NCBI GenBank assembly: GCA_034522055.1
Contig: JAXHLS010000006.1
Coordinates: 1,150,790-1,214,789, forward strand
Direction: 5' to 3'
Origin: Gammaproteobacteria bacterium
GTDB lineage: Bacteria; Pseudomonadota; Gammaproteobacteria; JAABTG01
DNA: 64,000 nucleotides
In this document: one piece after another, positions 1,823 through 33,829 of the stretch
Position numbering within the stretch: the first letter of the stretch is position 1
Layout of the letters: each line of letters starts with the position of its first letter
The notes under the pieces: model-generated
The model's database searches: none
What the model was told of the DNA's origin: nothing
Seen by the model: only the letters and a program-made list of their open reading frames with translations
Made by a program: the position numbers and the translations under genes

Positions 1823-2071
1823 TCAGCGCTCGAACGGGTTCAGCACGTCCACGTCCAAGTCGGCCACGTCCGCCCCGTTGCGCGTCACCAGTGGCAGGCC
1901 GTTGACCTTTGCCGTCGCTGCCAGCAACGCATCGATGACCGCCACCGGGCGGATCGCGTTCATTCGTCCCCACTCCTCGGCTACAGCCGTGTCGACCGGC
2001 AGTACCCGGTCGCCGAAGCCCGCAATCACGTTGCCGAGCCATGCCTCGAGCGCGCCGGCCTTCCTCCTCAC
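1823..2071 (-). pseudogene. VapC-like PIN-domain toxin, N-terminally truncated
   Basis: The 82 residues match the C-terminal two thirds of VapC PIN-domain ribonucleases: GDRVLPVD, AEEWGRMNA, VIDALLAATA and the closing LVTRNGADVADLDVDVLNPF. Family members are about 130-140 residues. The N-terminal strand with the first catalytic Asp is missing, and no antitoxin gene is adjacent. The break coincides with the start of a transposase remnant at 2072, so an insertion probably truncated it. Not expected to be active. Confidence 0.75.
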
Positions 2072-2280
2072 GGCTGAAGACCAAGGCGCCGACCTGGCGG
2101 GTGATCCGTCGTTTCTTCGAGGGCATCAACCTCAGCACGATCCTTCAGGACGGCAGCCCCATCCGCTCCACCCTCAAGGGGCTCACACCCTTGCACGAGC
2201 AGGTCCTGCAACTATTGGGGATCCCCGATAACGTCTATCGACAACTCCGCGACGGATGGTGGAACTTCGCTCCCTCATAA
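2072..2280 (+). pseudogene. transposase C-terminal remnant (IS1634/IS4-like)
   Basis: About 69 codons read LKTKAPTWRVIRRFFEGINL and end with LLGIPDNVYRQL. This resembles the C-terminal tail of IS4-superfamily (IS1634-type) transposases, where a KAPTxRW...FEGI motif precedes the stop. No catalytic DDE residues remain. It abuts the truncated vapC, and the two together look like the scar of an insertion followed by deletion. The family assignment is tentative. Confidence 0.5.
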
Positions 2281-2650
2281 CTCCCGGTACATCGATTACG
2301 CCAACGCTTCTTTAAAAATCCGTCCGAAATCCGAAATACGCAAACTCCTGAAATAACCGCGCGAAATGTAAGTTCTAACCCGGTCAACGTTCAATTAACG
2401 GAGGGGGGGCGAAGGAACAAGCCCGTTTCCACCAACCCAAAACGCTGCCGTGCCCTGCCCTGTGGATGACAGCATTCTGGGTTGAACCAGGGAAACGTCA
2501 GGCAAACTGACCGGCTGTTTCCCGCGCTGAGGGCAACAGGCTCAGCGGTTCCAGGACGGCCTTGTCATTAAGGTGGGAGAGGATCTTCTTGGGTAAATGG
2601 GGCCTGACCCTGAGCGGTTTGACCCTGAGCGGTTGCGCAAGGCGCGGATA
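2281..2650. other. non-coding stretch after transposase remnant
   Basis: I find no gene. It contains a G-run near 2403 and a short tandem duplication, TGACCCTGAGCGGTT, at about 2606-2635. The first part may include the old element's end, but I cannot define an inverted repeat. Confidence 0.4.
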
Positions 2651-3391
2651 TCACCACTCGCAGGGCGTGAAGAACCCGTCGTCGCCCAAGGCTTGCCGGC
2701 ATTGCCCCGTGGCGGGGGTGGGCGCGTCAGGATTCAGGGCGCCGCGCCGCTCCCGGGTCTCGGTCTCCAGGAGCTGGCGGGCGGGGCCGCAGGCCTCGCG
2801 CTGCGCGCATTGGCCCTCGGACCCGCAGACCTTGTCGGCCAGGCGCTGGCAGGCCGTGGGCCGGTTCCCGCGCTGCTCACGCTCGCAGGGGACGAAGAAA
2901 CTGCGGTCCTCCAGGGCCTGACGGCACTGGACGTCGGCGGGGAGATAGCCCTCGCCGAAGGCTCGCTCGTGGGAGATCCCGCGGCGCTCCTCCTCGTAGA
3001 TCTCGAGCAGCTGCCGGGCGGGGCCGCAGGCCGGGCTGTCGGCGCACTCGCCGTGCAGGCCGCAGGTCTTGCGTATCAGCTGCCTGCAGGCCATGGGCCC
3101 CTCGCTGATGAAGGCCTGAGGGGGATGGCGTCGCTCCCGCTTGAACTCCTGGAACGCCATGTTTGGCACCATCACGCCGGAGCGCACGGTGATGCTGGAG
3201 CCGTCCTCGAGCCGGTGCACCCCGTCCCAGAGCTGCCTTTTACCGCCCGCGCTCTGCACCGTCACCCGGTTGGTCCGGGGATCGACATGGATGCTGCGCC
3301 CACTCTGCAGAGTGGCGGACCATGGCTCCTGCCCGAGCGCGGGACCCGGCAGGAAAGACATCAGCAGGACGAGCAGCAGGACGCGTGGCAT
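2651..3391 (-). CDS. exported Cys-rich protein with a duplicated module
   Basis: The 246-residue product starts with a Sec signal peptide (basic MPR, hydrophobic VLLLVLLMSFL, cleavage near ALG-QEP). A short beta-rich segment follows (about 22-75), then two copies of a Cys module of about 65 residues. Copy one contains ACRQLIRKTCGLHGEC, ACGPARQLLE and CRQALEDRSFFVPCE. Copy two contains ACQRLADKVCGSEGQC, ACGPARQLLE and CRQALGDDGFFTPCE. Each module keeps six Cys, suggesting disulfide bonding outside the cytoplasm. I do not recognise a named family or function. It is monocistronic, with repeat sequence just upstream. Confidence 0.75.
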   Translation of the reverse strand: MPRVLLLVLLMSFLPGPALGQEPWSATLQSGRSIHVDPRTNRVTVQSAGGKRQLWDGVHRLEDGSSITVRSGVMVPNMAFQEFKRERRHPPQAFISEGPMACRQLIRKTCGLHGECADSPACGPARQLLEIYEEERRGISHERAFGEGYLPADVQCRQALEDRSFFVPCEREQRGNRPTACQRLADKVCGSEGQCAQREACGPARQLLETETRERRGALNPDAPTPATGQCRQALGDDGFFTPCEW

Positions 3392-3463
3392 GTGGTAATT
3401 GGGGTCTGGGTAATTGGGGTCAGAGTAAAAACTAGGTAATTGGGGTCAAAGTAAAAACTACGT
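3390..3463. repeat. short direct repeats GGTAATTGGGGTC
   Basis: The motif GGTAATTGGGGTC occurs three times in about 60 bases. In the last two copies it is followed by AGAGTAAAAACTA or AAAGTAAAAACTA. Similar TAATTGGGGTCAGAGTAAAAA strings are a common dispersed intergenic repeat in proteobacteria. It lies directly upstream of the exported Cys-rich gene. The rest of 3464-3508 shows nothing else. Confidence 0.7.
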
Positions 3464-4248
3464 GAATACTTCGATTCTGTTGGAAGTTCAGCTTATTGTT
3501 TTTCGTTGCAACGGTGTCCGGACTAATTCTGGCCCGGAGTCAATAAAGTGACCGCGAGGGGGGCATATGAAGCTGCGCAGGTCGCTATTCACGATGTTTT
3601 CTGAAAAATACGCCCTCGGCAATTCGATGGCGCTATGGTGCCTGATATTGGGTCGGGAAAATAATTTCGAAAAAATGTCAAAAAGTACTTGACAAAGGTT
3701 CTCCAGGGTGTTCGCGATATGTGTTGTAGAAACAACAACTTATCGGAGAACTTCATGCGTAGTGAGCGAATGAAATCCTTAATGAACCATATCCTGAACG
3801 AGACCGTCCTGGGCGAACTGCTGATCCCCGTTTCCGAGGCGTTGGCGCGCCTGCGCAACGCCAATGCCAATACGAGCGTGCTGGACATGTACACCTTTAT
3901 CAGCCTGGGCGTACTGCGTCATCTGCAGGGCATGCCCTCGCTGCGCGAGCAGGTGCAGTCGTTGCTGCATCTGGACCCGACCCATAGCCCGCAGGCACCC
4001 CTGGCCCGCTCTACCTGGTCCGATGCCCTGGCGTCGCGGCGTCGCCGCGACGTGGTCAGTGCCATGATAGGGCCGTTGCGGAGCGAGGCCCGGGCGGTAC
4101 TGCCCGACCGCTTGGCCGGGTTTGCCGAGCTGGCGGGGCGCCCCGTGTACGCGACCGACGGCACCTATCAGCACGAGAGCGCCCACTACGGGCGCCGCAC
4201 GCCCCGCCAGGGCGGTGAGGACAACCCCAAGGGCCATGCGCTGCTGAG

Positions 4249-5550
4249 GCCTCTGTCGGAAATTAACTTGCCAAGTAGAGGGATCTGTGATCTCCTACGG
4301 GGATGAAACGAAACCTCGTACTGGAAGCCGCAATCGTTGAGAAATACATCGCCGTTTCGCCGGAACTCAACGAACGTGGCCGCCGGTTGTGGGCGGCGGC
4401 GGAATCGCGCAGCATCGGCTGGGGTGGCGATGCGCTGGTGTCGTCGGCCACCGGGCTTGCCCGCGAAACCATTCGCAAGGGGCGGAGTGAGATCGAGTCC
4501 GGCGTGCAGCCGAGTGCGCGGGTACGCCGCCCGGGTGCCGGTCGTCCCGGAATTGAGGCGAGCCAACCGGGACTCCTGGAGGCGCTGGAGCGATTGGTGG
4601 ACCCGCTGACGCGCGGCGACCCGGAGTCGCCACTGCGCTGGACCTGCAAAAGCCGCGCGAAACTCGCGGCAGCGCTGACGGCGCAAGGCTGGAAGGTGAG
4701 TTCGACCACAGTTGGACGGTTGCTCAACGAAGCGGGCTACCGGTTGCAGTCGGTGCGCAAGAGTCGCGAAGGGGTCTCGCATCCCGAGCGCCACGCGCAG
4801 TTCGAGTACCTCAACGCGACGGCCGAGGGCCTGCTCGGCGCGGGCCAGCCGGTCATCTCGGTGGACACGAAGAAGAAGGAGCTGGTGGGCGATTTTCGCA
4901 ATGGGGGGCGGGAATGGCAGCCCAAGGGCGCCCCGGAGAAGGCACTGGTGCACGACTTCCCCAGCGATGGGCTGGGCAAGGCGATCCCCTACGGGATTTA
5001 CGACATGGGGCGCAACGAGGCCTGGGTCAACGTCGGGCGTGACCACGACACCCCTGCCTTTGCGGTGGCCTCCATTCGCCAGTGGTGGCAGGAGATGGGC
5101 CGCGCGGCCTATCCGAAGGCCGAGGAGCTGTTCATCACGGCTGATGCGGGGGGATCGAACGGCTACCGTTCGAGGGTGTGGAAACATGAGTTGCAAGGAT
5201 TCGCCGACGAAACGGGCCTGCGTATCCGCGTGAGCCACTTTCCGCCGGGCACGAGCAAGTGGAACAAGATAGAGCACCGCCAGTTCTGCCATATCACGCA
5301 GAACTGGCGAGGCAAGCCGCTGCGTACCTTCGAGACCATCGTCGACCTCATCGGCCATACGCGTACTGCCAAGGGGCTTCGCGTCAAGGCGAAGCTGGAC
5401 GAGCGCAACTACCCCACCGGTGCGAAAATCACCAATGCTCAGATGAAGGCCATTGCGCTCACGCGCAACGACTTCCAAGGCGACTGGAACTATGAGATCC
5501 ATCCGCGTATCGAGTAACGCCAACTTGGCAAGTTAATATCGATCACTCTC
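4249..5550 (+). mobile_element. ISAzo13-family (IS630-related) insertion sequence
   Basis: This 1302-bp insertion lies within the IS4 transposase. A perfect 15-bp inverted repeat, ATTAACTTGCCAAGT at 4262-4276 and its complement at 5523-5537, lies 13 bases inside each end, and the outer 13 bases match imperfectly. The flanks carry CTGAG at 4244-4248 and 5551-5555, the probable target duplication. The interior is one intact transposase gene. Confidence 0.88.
4303..5517 (+). CDS. ISAzo13-family transposase
   Basis: The 404-residue product is a full-length DDE transposase. An N-terminal HTH-like region (VSSATGLARETIRKGRSE, then VSSTTVGRLLNEAGY) precedes the catalytic core. Core motifs are ISVDTKKKELVGDF, the conserved NGGREWQPKG, FITADAGGSNG and a closing KWNKIEHRQF with the catalytic Glu. 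The C-terminal RNDFQGDWNYEIHPR is typical of the family. The ATG at 4303 follows a CTACGGGG Shine-Dalgarno-like stretch. No disruption is visible, so it could be active. Confidence 0.93.
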   Translation: MKRNLVLEAAIVEKYIAVSPELNERGRRLWAAAESRSIGWGGDALVSSATGLARETIRKGRSEIESGVQPSARVRRPGAGRPGIEASQPGLLEALERLVDPLTRGDPESPLRWTCKSRAKLAAALTAQGWKVSSTTVGRLLNEAGYRLQSVRKSREGVSHPERHAQFEYLNATAEGLLGAGQPVISVDTKKKELVGDFRNGGREWQPKGAPEKALVHDFPSDGLGKAIPYGIYDMGRNEAWVNVGRDHDTPAFAVASIRQWWQEMGRAAYPKAEELFITADAGGSNGYRSRVWKHELQGFADETGLRIRVSHFPPGTSKWNKIEHRQFCHITQNWRGKPLRTFETIVDLIGHTRTAKGLRVKAKLDERNYPTGAKITNAQMKAIALTRNDFQGDWNYEIHPRIE

Positions 5551-6440
5551 CTGAGCTTCTACGACGTGCGCCTGGGGTGCCCCGCGGATGTCTACGTCGA
5601 TACCCGCAATCGCCACGAGACCACCTTGCTGCGGGACTATGACGCCAACGAACAAGCCATGACCCGGCACAGGAAGGCCCTGTGGCTCGTCGACCGCGCC
5701 TTCATCGACGCCCGCTTCTGGGACCAGAAGAAGAAGGGCCTGGGCGTGACGCGGGTGACCCGCATGAAAAAGAACCTGCGCATCGATTCCACCGAGACCC
5801 TGCCGGTGGCCGACATCGCCGTCAACGAAGGCATCGTGAAGGACTTGCGTATCACCCTGGGCAGTTCCCAGGCCTTCTGGCGGCTGGTCACCTTCCGCTC
5901 CCGGCGCGGCCGCCTCGTGGAGTTCCTCACCAACGACTTCGACCTCGAGCCCGGCCTCGTCGCCTTCCTGTATTCCCGCCGCTGGGAAGAGGAGAAGTGC
6001 TTCGATACCTGGAAGAACGACTTCAGCCAGGCCAAGGCCTGGGGCGCCAGTGTCGTGGCCATCGACAACCAGGTGCGTCTGGCCATCATCACCTCCCTCC
6101 TCGTGGCCATGCTGGTGCACCGCACCATGGGTCAGCACGGCGTCGAGGACGAGAAAGCCCTGCGCAAACAGGACCGCCGGCAGACCGCGGCAACAGACGG
6201 GACCGACCGCCCCGACTGGAGCACCCCGGTGTTCCGCTATACCTCCAAAGTGAGCCGCCAAGTGCTGAGGTTCTTCAAACACTGTTCTCACAAGCCCGCC
6301 TCCCTGGCGCTCTATGAGAGCCAGCTACGCCCCATGTTGATGGCGTACCTGTGAGGCAGGGCGGACACCGTTGTTTTCGTTGTATTCATGGCCTGTTCCC
6401 TGTTGTCCCGGACTGCGGCCGCAACCGGCGGCCCGGCCGG

Positions 6441-28417: not shown

Positions 28418-29851
28418 TCATTCCGGGAACATATCCACCTGCACACCGGGGCCGCGGGGGGGCGGGCGGCGCAGCGGCCTCCTCCTGGCGCAGCCGCTCC
28501 TCGTCGTCGAAGCCTCGCAGCATGGCCCCGAGTTCGTCGATGGCCTGCTGGTAAAGCTCATTCGAAGACCAGCCGGACTGCGCCCACTTGGTATCGTCCT
28601 CAAGCTCCACGCCGAGACGCTCGGGGGAGAGCACCTGGTAGATGCGCTGCCAGCGGCCTTCGATGCGCAGGGCGAGCCCCGGGTTGAGCACATAGCTACC
28701 CCGGCGCACGCGCCTGAACAGCTTACGGTTGTATGGACCTTCCCGATTCACCTCGTTCTTCGCCAGGATGGACGAGATATACGGGCGCCGCTTGCGCCGC
28801 TGGGGCACGACGGAGTCGTGGAAGTCCGCGAGGACTTCCTCGAAGTCCACCGCCGTCAGAAGCATCCGCCGCTTCGCCCAGCTGGTGCCGAGACGCTGGT
28901 AGAACAGCACCATGGCGAGGCAGAGCATTAGGTACTCCATCTGGCTGCGGTCGAGCTTGACCAGGCGCCCGTCCACCTGCACGTCGAGACTCGCCGGCGC
29001 CAGGCGCTCAAAGATGGGCGGCAGCCGGGTGCGCGCGAAGCGCTCGTCGGTGCATGCCCGGTCGAGGGCGATCTGAAAGGCGTTGAGGCCGTTGCCGTCC
29101 ACCAGGGTGGTGTCGGCGTCCCGGTCCAGCAGCATCTCCGCGAGTTCCGCATTGCCCATGCGACTCGCGATCATGAGCGGCGTCTGGCCGAACACGTTGC
29201 GGAAGTCGACCCCGTACTTTTCGGTGTCCCGCAGCACCTTGGCGGGTGTCTTGAGCCCGTAGGGCAGGTAGTATTTCTTCTCGATCAGGTCGAGGGCCTT
29301 CGCCGGGTTCTTGACGGCCTTGACGCCCGCCTGCTCGAGGGCGTTGAGGCGACGCTGGTCACGATAGACCAAGGCGTACTCCATCAGCGCGATGCCGGCC
29401 TTCTTCTCCCGGCCCTCGAGGGCCTTGTGCTCCAGCTCGGCGAGAGCGTCGCCGCGCAGCACGCTCCAGGGCACTCCCCGTTCTTTCAGGATGTGGCTGC
29501 GGATCTCCGCCGCCTGCTCGTCCTTGCCCTGGAGTTCGAGACGGTGGGCCTCGTGGCGCCACTCTTCCAGGCTCGAGCGCTGCTCGTCCATCCCTTCCAC
29601 GTCCTCGTAGACCTGGCCCAGGCCGAGCAGCTCCAGCACCTGCTGGCGCGGCTGGGGCTCGAGCAGATAGAGGTTCTTCACCGCCCGGGTGACCGCCACG
29701 TACAGGGCGTTGATGTAGAACTTGTAGATCTCGAGGGACTTGTCCCCCTTGTCCCGGCCCCGGGCATAGGTGAGTTCGCCTGCCAGGCTCGCCTCGTCGA
29801 GGCCCGCGGCGATGTCCCGGAAGAGCCGAGCCCCTCGGCGATTTATCCATG
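28418..29851 (-). pseudogene. UvrD-like helicase C-terminal part with ankyrin repeats, truncated
   Basis: The remaining ~475 residues start at the intron edge (ARLFRDIAAGLDEAS), then helicase motif VI-like IYKFYINALYVAVTRAVKNL. A helical region and ankyrin-like repeats follow (DFRNVFGQTPLMIASRMGNA, ELAEMLLDRDADTTLVDGNG). The C-terminal domain (PYISSILAKNEVNREGPYNR...GRWQRIYQVLS) is of unknown function. All ATPase motifs (Walker A and B) are missing; the gene is cut by the group II introns. A homopolymer of C at 28455-28461 appears one base off: in the other frame the end reads [11 protein letters not shown] and stops at 28418. The architecture, a superfamily-1 helicase fused to ankyrin repeats, is known in accessory loci. 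Confidence 0.75.
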
Positions 29852-31770
29852 ATAGGGGTCGGGAAGGAGTGACCCTCCCCGCCCTCCGAACCGTGCATGC
29901 GGTTCTCCCGCACACGGCTCTCCAGTCGGTGGTTACCTCATCGGGATTGGCTCGCCAACGTCCGGGCTTCGGTCATGGTGAAAAGCCCAGCCGCAGCGAA
30001 GAACGCGTTCGGCCAGCGGAGATGGTCGGACTGACAATGACCCGCTCCCGGGCGCTTCTGCTGCTTGCGCAACAGCGCCCGTAATCGACGTCGGACAAAA
30101 CCGTCCACGCGAGGAAAGGTCCACGGGTGCGCGTGCTGGAAATACACGAACCAGCCACGCAGCATCGGGTTCAGGTCGGCCACAATCCGCGCCAGCAAAT
30201 CCCCACGACTGCGCCGGGTTTTGGCCCGGACCCGGTCGTAAAGGGCCTTGCGGCTCTTCTTGCGTACCCACCGCCGTCCCGCTTCAAACCGGTACCCGAG
30301 AAACTCAAAGCCTTCCCCGGGCTGCCGGCAATCCCCCACACGGGTCTTCTCCGGGTGCAGTTGCAGACCATTGGCCTCCACCCAGTGCCGCAACTCCTGC
30401 AGCGCCTCCTGGGCTTCGTCCGGACTGGCACACAGGATCACGAGGTCGTCAGCATACCGAACCATCCGATAGCCGCGCTGGGTCATGTGTACATCCAGCC
30501 CGTGCAGGTACAGATTCGCGAGTAACGGACTGATCACCGCCCCTTGGGGCGAGCCCCGGGTCGGCGTCCAGCGCGCTATCTCCGCCACCACGTCCTGGCG
30601 CAACCAGGCGCGCAGCAGGTCGAGGATCCGACCATCGCTGATCCGGTCCTCGACCCGGGCCATCAACGCTTCGTGCGGGATGGTGTCGAAGTACTGGGCC
30701 AGGTCGGCATCCACCACATGGGTGTAGCCCTCCCGAACCAGCCCATCCACTTCCCGCAGCGCATCCTTGCACCCGCGACCCGGGCGAAACCCGTAACTCA
30801 TCGGCAAAAACTGGTGCTCGAAAATCGGCTCGAGCACCCGCTTCATCGCCGCCTGCACAATCCGGTCCTTCACCGTCGGAATGCCCAGGGGACGCGTCCC
30901 TGTCCCCTTCGGAATCTCCACCCGACGCACCGCATCCGGTCGGTACCGTCCAATTCCCAGCGCCTCTCCCAGCTCCGCCAGATACCGCTCGGCATGGGCC
31001 TCAAAACGCTGCACACTCTGGCCATCCACCCCCGCTGAACCCCGGTTGGCCCGCACATCCTGCCACGCCCGTTCCAGGGTCTGGGGGCGATGCACCTTGT
31101 CGATCAGACTGAACCACTTCGTCCCTTGGACGCCGTTACCCAGCGCCGCCAACATGCGCTCCGTCCAGATCGTGCGGTCCACCCACGGCCATTCCACCGG
31201 GTTGGACGAGTCTGGCTTAGCCTCTTGCGAGACACTCTCGACCCTTTGCATACGCGCTCACCTCCTCCGGACTTCACCCATCCACCTTCCTGCCTCCCTT
31301 CCCTCGGCGCGATTTCTGTTCTTCGCGCTTTCCCGGCACCACCCACGGTTTTAGGCGGAGGACGCCCTCCAGCTCTTGGGTCCGCGTTTCCGCAGCACCT
31401 CGCCATGACCGCAGCAGAACCGTTCAGTACTACGAAGGCTCTGACTCCTGCCCACCGTCACCACGGCGGTCAGGTCTCCCCGCTTCTCTCGCATTTCCTT
31501 CCCAGCGTTCCGTCTCCAACCACGGAGGGGACCCGAATGTCGCTTTCCACGCCAGTCCCAGCGCATCCGATGAGTTTCAGGCTTCACCTTCTCCTAGCGG
31601 GCTCGCCGTCCCGTACCGCCGAATCGAGTTCGTCATCCTACGGACCGCCAGTTCGCCTCCGGTTGCTCTCCACCCCGCCTCGCGACGACGCAGTTACCTT
31701 CGACTACGGGGCCTTGGCTTACCCCGACACGGACTCTCACCGTGCAGAAAATGCGCCTCCACGGACGCAC
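29852..31770 (-). mobile_element. group IIC intron, copy 1
   Basis: This 1919-base intron runs on the minus strand from GTGCG (5' end at 31770) to GACCCCTAT (3' end at 29852). Domain V (AGCCGTGTGCGGGAGAACCG...CACGGTTC) lies at 29888-29920. Directly 5' of it is a hairpin GCCGAGGGGGCTCGGC (in 31771-31795), the kind of terminator-like stem that class C introns insert behind. The 3' flank is the truncated helicase gene. It encodes one RT. Confidence 0.88.
29938..31251 (-). CDS. group IIC intron reverse transcriptase/maturase, copy 1
   Basis: The 437-residue protein has RT blocks from about 70 to 330: RGSAGVDGQSV, RRVEIPKGTGTRPLGIPTVK, YGFRPGRGCKDALREV, VVDADLAQYFDTIPHEALM, GSPQGAVISPLLANLYLHGL and the catalytic YADD at 266-269. 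The maturase region is at 330-437 (MLRGWFVYFQHAH), ending WPNAFFAAAGLFTMTEA, typical of class C. No HNH endonuclease is present, also as in class C. It is identical to copy 2 except Leu352 instead of Ser. It is intact and could support retrohoming. Confidence 0.95.
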   Translation of the reverse strand: MQRVESVSQEAKPDSSNPVEWPWVDRTIWTERMLAALGNGVQGTKWFSLIDKVHRPQTLERAWQDVRANRGSAGVDGQSVQRFEAHAERYLAELGEALGIGRYRPDAVRRVEIPKGTGTRPLGIPTVKDRIVQAAMKRVLEPIFEHQFLPMSYGFRPGRGCKDALREVDGLVREGYTHVVDADLAQYFDTIPHEALMARVEDRISDGRILDLLRAWLRQDVVAEIARWTPTRGSPQGAVISPLLANLYLHGLDVHMTQRGYRMVRYADDLVILCASPDEAQEALQELRHWVEANGLQLHPEKTRVGDCRQPGEGFEFLGYRFEAGRRWVRKKSRKALYDRVRAKTRRSRGDLLARIVADLNPMLRGWFVYFQHAHPWTFPRVDGFVRRRLRALLRKQQKRPGAGHCQSDHLRWPNAFFAAAGLFTMTEARTLASQSR

Positions 31771-31877
31771 TGGGAGCCGAGCCCCCTCGGCGATTAACCC
31801 TCGACGATCGCACCCCCACCACCCAATCGGCCAAAGGGCTGGCCTCCTACACCTACATCGCTCATCGAACCCGCCTG
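31771..31877. other. 107-bp spacer between tandem introns with terminator-like hairpin
   Basis: On the minus strand the spacer starts with a possible coding end (MSDVGVGGQPFGRLGGGGAI, VEG, then TAA). That TAA is followed at once by TCGCCGAGGGGGCTCGGCTCCCA, a hairpin that ends at the intron 5' splice site. It fits a gene end plus Rho-independent-type stem used as intron target. Confidence 0.6.
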
Positions 31878-33796
31878 ATAGGGGTCGGGAAGGAGTGACC
31901 CTCCCCGCCCTCCGAACCGTGCATGCGGTTCTCCCGCACACGGCTCTCCAGTCGGTGGTTACCTCATCGGGATTGGCTCGCCAACGTCCGGGCTTCGGTC
32001 ATGGTGAAAAGCCCAGCCGCAGCGAAGAACGCGTTCGGCCAGCGGAGATGGTCGGACTGACAATGACCCGCTCCCGGGCGCTTCTGCTGCTTGCGCAACA
32101 GCGCCCGTAATCGACGTCGGACAAAACCGTCCACGCGAGGAAAGGTCCACGGGTGCGCGTGCTGGAAATACACGAACCAGCCACGCAGCATCGGGTTCAG
32201 GTCGGCCACAATCCGCGCCAGCGAATCCCCACGACTGCGCCGGGTTTTGGCCCGGACCCGGTCGTAAAGGGCCTTGCGGCTCTTCTTGCGTACCCACCGC
32301 CGTCCCGCTTCAAACCGGTACCCGAGAAACTCAAAGCCTTCCCCGGGCTGCCGGCAATCCCCCACACGGGTCTTCTCCGGGTGCAGTTGCAGACCATTGG
32401 CCTCCACCCAGTGCCGCAACTCCTGCAGCGCCTCCTGGGCTTCGTCCGGACTGGCACACAGGATCACGAGGTCGTCAGCATACCGAACCATCCGATAGCC
32501 GCGCTGGGTCATGTGTACATCCAGCCCGTGCAGGTACAGATTCGCGAGTAACGGACTGATCACCGCCCCTTGGGGCGAGCCCCGGGTCGGCGTCCAGCGC
32601 GCTATCTCCGCCACCACGTCCTGGCGCAACCAGGCGCGCAGCAGGTCGAGGATCCGACCATCGCTGATCCGGTCCTCGACCCGGGCCATCAACGCTTCGT
32701 GCGGGATGGTGTCGAAGTACTGGGCCAGGTCGGCATCCACCACATGGGTGTAGCCCTCCCGAACCAGCCCATCCACTTCCCGCAGCGCATCCTTGCACCC
32801 GCGACCCGGGCGAAACCCGTAACTCATCGGCAAAAACTGGTGCTCGAAAATCGGCTCGAGCACCCGCTTCATCGCCGCCTGCACAATCCGGTCCTTCACC
32901 GTCGGAATGCCCAGGGGACGCGTCCCTGTCCCCTTCGGAATCTCCACCCGACGCACCGCATCCGGTCGGTACCGTCCAATTCCCAGCGCCTCTCCCAACT
33001 CCGCCAGATACCGCTCGGCATGGGCCTCAAAACGCTGCACACTCTGGCCATCCACCCCCGCTGAACCCCGGTTGGCCCGCACATCCTGCCACGCCCGTTC
33101 CAGGGTCTGGGGGCGATGCACCTTGTCGATCAGACTGAACCACTTCGTCCCTTGGACGCCGTTACCCAGCGCCGCCAACATGCGCTCCGTCCAGATCGTG
33201 CGGTCCACCCACGGCCATTCCACCGGGTTGGACGAGTCTGGCTTAGCCTCTTGCGAGACACTCTCGACCCTTTGCATACGCGCTCACCTCCTCCGGACTT
33301 CACCCATCCACCTTCCTGCCTCCCTTCCCTCGGCGCGATTTCTGTTCTTCGCGCTTTCCCGGCACCACCCACGGTTTTAGGCGGAGGACGCCCTCCAGCT
33401 CTTGGGTCCGCGTTTCCGCAGCACCTCGCCATGACCGCAGCAGAACCGTTCAGTACTACGAAGGCTCTGACTCCTGCCCACCGTCACCACGGCGGTCAGG
33501 TCTCCCCGCTTCTCTCGCATTTCCTTCCCAGCGTTCCGTCTCCAACCACGGAGGGGACCCGAATGTCGCTTTCCACGCCAATCCCAGCGCATCCGATGAT
33601 TTTCAGGCTTCACCTTCTCCTAGCGGGCTCGCCGTCCCGTACCGCCGAATCGAGTTCGTCATCCTACGGACCGCCAGTTCGCCTCCGGTTGCTCTCCACC
33701 CCGCCTCGCGACGACGCAGTTACCTTCGACTACGGGGCCTTGGCTTACCCCGACACGGACTCTCACCGTGCAGAAAATGCGCCTCCACGGACGCAC
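31878..33796 (-). mobile_element. group IIC intron, copy 2
   Basis: The second 1919-base copy is displaced by exactly 2026 bases and differs from copy 1 at only a few positions (for example 32222, 32998, 33581). Its 5' end is GTGCG at 33796 and its 3' end at 31878. Domain V lies at 31914-31946. It is also preceded on its 5' side by the hairpin GCCGAGGGGGCTCGGC at about 33805-33820. Confidence 0.9.
31964..33277 (-). CDS. group IIC intron reverse transcriptase/maturase, copy 2
   Basis: The 437-residue protein is the same as copy 1 but with Ser352 (RGDSLARIV). All RT and maturase blocks, including YADD, are intact. Near-identity of the two copies points to a recent duplication or a second insertion from the same source. 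Confidence 0.95.
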   Translation of the reverse strand: MQRVESVSQEAKPDSSNPVEWPWVDRTIWTERMLAALGNGVQGTKWFSLIDKVHRPQTLERAWQDVRANRGSAGVDGQSVQRFEAHAERYLAELGEALGIGRYRPDAVRRVEIPKGTGTRPLGIPTVKDRIVQAAMKRVLEPIFEHQFLPMSYGFRPGRGCKDALREVDGLVREGYTHVVDADLAQYFDTIPHEALMARVEDRISDGRILDLLRAWLRQDVVAEIARWTPTRGSPQGAVISPLLANLYLHGLDVHMTQRGYRMVRYADDLVILCASPDEAQEALQELRHWVEANGLQLHPEKTRVGDCRQPGEGFEFLGYRFEAGRRWVRKKSRKALYDRVRAKTRRSRGDSLARIVADLNPMLRGWFVYFQHAHPWTFPRVDGFVRRRLRALLRKQQKRPGAGHCQSDHLRWPNAFFAAAGLFTMTEARTLASQSR

Positions 33797-33829
33797 TAGG
33801 AGCCGAGCCCCCTCGGCGATTTATCCATA
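33797..33829 (-). terminator. hairpin at the 5' side of intron copy 2
   Basis: On the minus strand, ATGGATAAATCGCCGAGGGG leads into GCTCGGCTCCTA and then the intron GTGCG. The stem GCCGAG/CTCGGC with a GGGG loop is the same as in the other two places (29821-29850 and 31771-31795). Poly-T is absent, so it may be only an intron target rather than a working terminator. Confidence 0.5.

Follow-up and report, generated by a model that had tools for sequence, protein, structure and literature searches.

The stretch of DNA analysed here, hereafter the window, comprises 64,000 nucleotides of a 5.14-Mb assembly in 7 contigs (referred to below as C1, C2, C4, C6 and so on). On its forward strand, positions 3509 to 6373 are occupied by an interrupted insertion sequence of the IS4 family (IS4Sa-like), 2865 bp long with its insert, which is bounded by the perfect 12-bp terminal inverted repeats CAACGGTGTCCG (3509-3520) and CGGACACCGTTG (6362-6373) and flanked by two copies of a 9-bp target duplication, TTTTCGTTG (3500-3508 and 6374-6382). 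The transposase gene of this outer element is divided into a 5' part (3755-4247), containing the presumed first catalytic aspartate, D135, and a 3' part (5555-6354) with the presumed second aspartate, the glutamate and the YREK motif. Between them, on the same strand, lies an ISAzo13-family element of 1304 bp with GG...CC ends (4248-5551). Its left end, GGCCTCTGTCG... (4248-4276), and its right end (5523-5551) carry an inverted repeat of 18 nt (4259-4276 and 5523-5540; 94% complementary, with a perfect core of 15 bases) that begins eleven bases inside the GG...CC ends, and its transposase of 404 aa is encoded by an open frame (4303-5517). The element is flanked by a 3-bp target duplication, TGA (4245-4247 and 5552-5554), as defined by comparison of flanks across copies. 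The nesting is genuine and well resolved, and constitutes an ordinary event between two known families; that an IS4-family element is here split by an ISAzo13-family element with precisely these inner ends we regard as nearly certain. The strings listed in an earlier note on this DNA, namely the 12-bp inverted repeats, the 9-bp duplication, CTGAG on both sides of the insert (4244-4248 and 5551-5555) and a 15-bp repeat, are all present in the sequence, and its assignment of the two elements to the ISAzo13 and IS4 families was right.

The outer element, its copies and its target site

The genome contains three copies of the outer element: besides the one in the window there is a complete and uninterrupted copy of 1558 bp (C1:31623-33180) and an incomplete one (C6:297828-298548). 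The C1 copy has the same ends as that in the window and a 9-bp duplication of its own (CTTTCGTAT as read on the contig), so that such a duplication is found at two of the three copies, the third being truncated. It thereby confirms the nesting, the outer boundaries and the 9-bp outer duplication that had been proposed from the window alone. When the two halves of the window element are used as queries, their matches at C1 overlap in the five bases CTGAG. The C1 transposase is a single open frame of 430 aa that reads through GHALLSFYDV, the very peptide predicted to be restored in frame on removal of the insert. For the inner insertion, the C1 copy thus serves as a natural empty site, from which it follows that the inner element came second, in the order that the earlier note had given. 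The truncated copy on C6 is 98% identical over 721 bp, and some 34 bases separate its broken end from the beginning of an open frame on the opposite strand (L114 3583-4272).

Either element occurs more than once in this genome, and repeated sequences are prone to being misjoined, so that the structure could conceivably be an artefact of assembly or two repeats fused into a chimera. The halves of the outer element are identical to the C1 copy at 729/740 and 816/823 positions, that is, they differ from it at 18 positions (11 and 7), and the inner element differs from a copy on contig C4 at 42 positions and 7 gap columns. A matching duplication is moreover present at each junction pair, and none of these features is expected of a chimera. 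On the strength of these matching duplications and independent substitutions we reject an assembly chimera, which we consider extremely improbable, in favour of a genuine nested insertion.

The site entered by the outer element could be recognized within the same genome. Both outer flanks (window 3480-3508 and 6374-6410) match a dispersed repeat, approximately CTTCAGCTTATYGTTTTTCGTTGTATTCGTGGCCTG, the 20-base core of which was found at 11 places with at most 3 mismatches, the right flank of the window itself included, while the reversed control gave 0. At C6:615297 the two flanks (the left over 22 bases at 95%, the right over 32 bases at 94%) meet at a single TTTTCGTTG. This is a paralogous empty site, and it supports the 9-bp outer duplication. 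An empty target in related strains had also been suggested as a check, and here the outcome was divided: the paralogous site exists, while an orthologous empty site for the outer element was not found in one other genome of the genus, where a 5.1-kb stretch was compared. In that congener, similarity to the right flank sets in at window position 6428, at a distance of 54 bp from the outer element, and for the left flank (window 2000-3508) the 5.1-kb stretch gave no match. The search covered four other genomes of the family, among which the congener gave this right-flank match and another held a 67% identical piece further to the right. Each of the two insertions is accordingly represented by one empty site, natural or paralogous, within one genome, which makes the nest a clean worked example of the ordering of events. 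Just to the left of the outer element (window 3391-3460) there are short tandem units, GTAATTGGGGTC(AGAGTAAAAACTA), that are matched in part at six further locations of the genome.

The outer element fits the subgroup IS4Sa of the IS4 family by published criteria, a placement made by description and not by a tree with named members. As described in PMC2266710, the subgroup is characterized by ends of the form CA------T, a length of 1150-1750 bp, duplications of 8-10 bp and the YREK motif. The outer element shares the CA------T ends (CAACGGTGT...), a length of 1558 bp and a single-frame transposase in the C1 copy, and its 9-bp duplication agrees with the criterion of the IS4 family that roughly one turn of the helix is duplicated at the target. 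The YREK motif is represented by Y304, R307, E311 and K318, in the spacing Y(2)R(3)E(6)K given in the same source, and is found also in a 42% identical relative (L125). D135, D211 and E311 are likewise common to the protein and this relative, and are the probable catalytic residues. They are separated by 75 and 99 residues, as compared with D(60-110)D(100-150)E, the approximate range in PMC2266710, so that the second spacer is one residue short of the approximate lower bound. The other difference from the subgroup is one of score: the outer transposase reached 111.4 bits with the NCBIfam IS4 model NF033592, just under the cut-off of 115, and the separate frame pieces in the window match the model with scores that are each under the cut-off. 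With the broader Pfam model DDE_Tnp_1 the transposase scored 38.9 (cut-off 23), and the second frame piece by itself is above the cut-off of that model. Among 369 sampled genomes of the class, the nearest relative of the outer transposase outside its own genome is 42-43% identical. A search for close relatives in viral contigs gave one pattern match and none that was confirmed.

The inner element and the length of its target duplication

The inner transposase matches the ISAzo13 model NF033519 with 572.6 bits (cut-off 200), residues 19-401 aligning to positions 2-387 of the 387 in the model, and the Pfam family DDE_Tnp_ISAZ013 (PF07592) with 466.3 bits. D188, D281 and E324 are invariant in all 12 aligned sequences (the window copy and 11 of the 80 loci introduced below), and we infer from this conservation and from their context that they would be the catalytic three. 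The element resembles the ISAzo13 family in its model match, GG...CC ends, inverted repeats, 3-bp TNA duplication and conserved presumed DDE residues, and shows no difference of note apart from TGA being a rarer form of TNA. Zator, a eukaryotic relative, is paired with ISAzo13 in PMC10045372 and PMC5718144, and 3-bp duplications are given for both in the introduction of the former; the two are likened here by description and not by sequence, and Zator differs in being eukaryotic. ISAzo13 matches of 60-90% identity occur in 125 plasmid records, none of them covering 80% of the query. A degenerate ISAzo13 remnant is present at C2:3217310-3217560, in pieces that are 75% and 79% identical.

In the earlier note the inner element had been taken to extend from 4249 to 5550 between 5-bp duplications, CTGAG. 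CTGAG does stand on both sides in the window, and the empty site on C1 is by itself compatible with CTGAG or with any shorter part of it as the duplication. A comparison of the termini of other copies, which had been put forward as a check, contradicts the 5-bp reading. A search of the genome for intact copies, suggested at the same time, had found the outer element intact on C1 and inner copies with both ends on C4 and C2, the latter split. In the orientation of the element, the C4 copy is flanked by CTTAG and CTTAC and the split C2 copy by GTTAG and CTTAC, so that the five-mers are unequal at both of them. All that is common to the flanks of these copies is TTA, and the element therefore gains a G at its start and a C at its end. 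The inner duplication in the window is thus TGA (3 bp), and the element, at 4248-5551, is one base longer at each end than previously implied. The net gain by the inner insertion is 1307 bases under either boundary, and the argument from the reading frame is for that reason unaffected.

Relatives from the genome collection were examined in the same manner. The best 80 of 146 loci were taken, and ends were set with the flanks ignored, by requiring GG and CC ends, a length of 1280-1345 and a score of 12 or more for the best 20-bp inverted repeat. This rule defined ends at 56 of the 80 loci, the other 24 being dropped; it was written after the flanks had been inspected, and the counts that follow are support and not an independent sample. 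Nor are the 56 loci independent of one another, as some genomes contribute several copies (nine in one Rhodobacteraceae assembly, four in one Mesorhizobium). An exact 3-bp repeat is present at 35 of the 56 and a longer one at those ends at none (0/56). When the right flanks were shuffled among loci, equality was seen at a mean of 18.2/56 and a maximum of 28 (2000 shuffles), a level that is so high because TAA and TTA dominate: the 35 equal repeats are TAA (18), TTA (15), AAA (1) and TAC (1), with TGA at 0.

The bases beside the repeat explain how three base pairs may pass for five. A C stands on its left at 21/35 loci and a G on its right at 22/35, and this preference (C-TNA-G), together with the terminal G and C of the element itself, gives 12 of the 35 the appearance of a 5-bp repeat, just as in the window. 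A duplication of 3 bp is furthermore what PMC10045372 states in its introduction. Since it fails at the C4 and C2 copies, we reject the 5-bp duplication, which is very unlikely to be correct, and retain TGA. Where the preferred target bases agree with the terminal bases of the element, a 3-bp TNA duplication can then be misread as 5 bp, with consequences for the annotation of ISAzo13 boundaries.

At the remaining 21 of the 56 loci there is no equal 3-bp repeat. In ten of these one flank is TAA and the other TTA (L017, L021, L022, L030, L045, L047, L056, L065, L087 and L088). L087 and L088 come from the same genome and have opposite TAA/TTA pairs, which suggests an exchange of flanks between copies; the other TAA/TTA loci may reflect exchange or misassembly, and several of the remaining unequal relatives look like cases of wrongly set ends.

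Course of events and probable consequences for mobility

The observations above are best accounted for in two steps, each an ordinary transposition. An IS4-family (IS4Sa-like) element first entered one copy of the dispersed repeat, where it duplicated the 9 bp TTTTCGTTG. The outer transposase gene was subsequently entered at CTGAG by an ISAzo13-family element, and TGA was duplicated; the GG...CC ends of this element would have been joined to the target at a staggered cut of 3 bp in TGA. Staggered cutting of the target is a general property of DDE transposases.

The insertion falls between D135 and D211/E311, and neither fragment of the outer transposase therefore has a full active site. As judged from the positions of these presumed residues, the outer copy in the window should yield no active transposase. 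The inner element retains an open frame with all three presumed catalytic residues, and its transposase may be active. It is also conceivable that the broken outer element moves in trans by means of the C1 transposase, with the ISAzo13 element as cargo: the outer ends are both intact, and the C1 copy encodes a full-length transposase. If true, two unrelated element families would travel as one unit. The nested unit was found only once in this genome, and we consider such movement unlikely.

Further nesting on contig C2 and a repeat elsewhere in the window

The split copy of the inner type on C2 (C2:2675776-2690712; L112 1777-16713) presents a deeper nest. Its ISAzo13 element is divided by 13,628 bp of DNA that has imperfect inverted ends of the form TGT...ACA and is accompanied by a duplication of 5 bp, CGAGG. 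The insert encodes an AAA ATPase and an IS481-like transposase, each scoring under the cut-off of its best NCBIfam model, in addition to istA and istB of IS21. The istA gene is in two pieces around a trio of tyrosine recombinases, which has perfect inverted repeats of 35 bp. Within this first trio, one gene is apparently interrupted by a second trio with perfect inverted repeats of 32 bp. The trios resemble RIT elements as these are described in PMC3414803. A search for the ends of the IS21-like layer gave a best inverted repeat of 15/20, which is not convincing. With at least four layers, the nest on C2 is more striking than that in the window.

Further along the window, two direct repeats (29850-31795 and 31876-33821), 99.7% identical over 1946 bp, are separated by 80 bases. 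Each of them holds a match to an Rfam group II intron and an open frame of 437 aa, by its appearance a putative reverse transcriptase.
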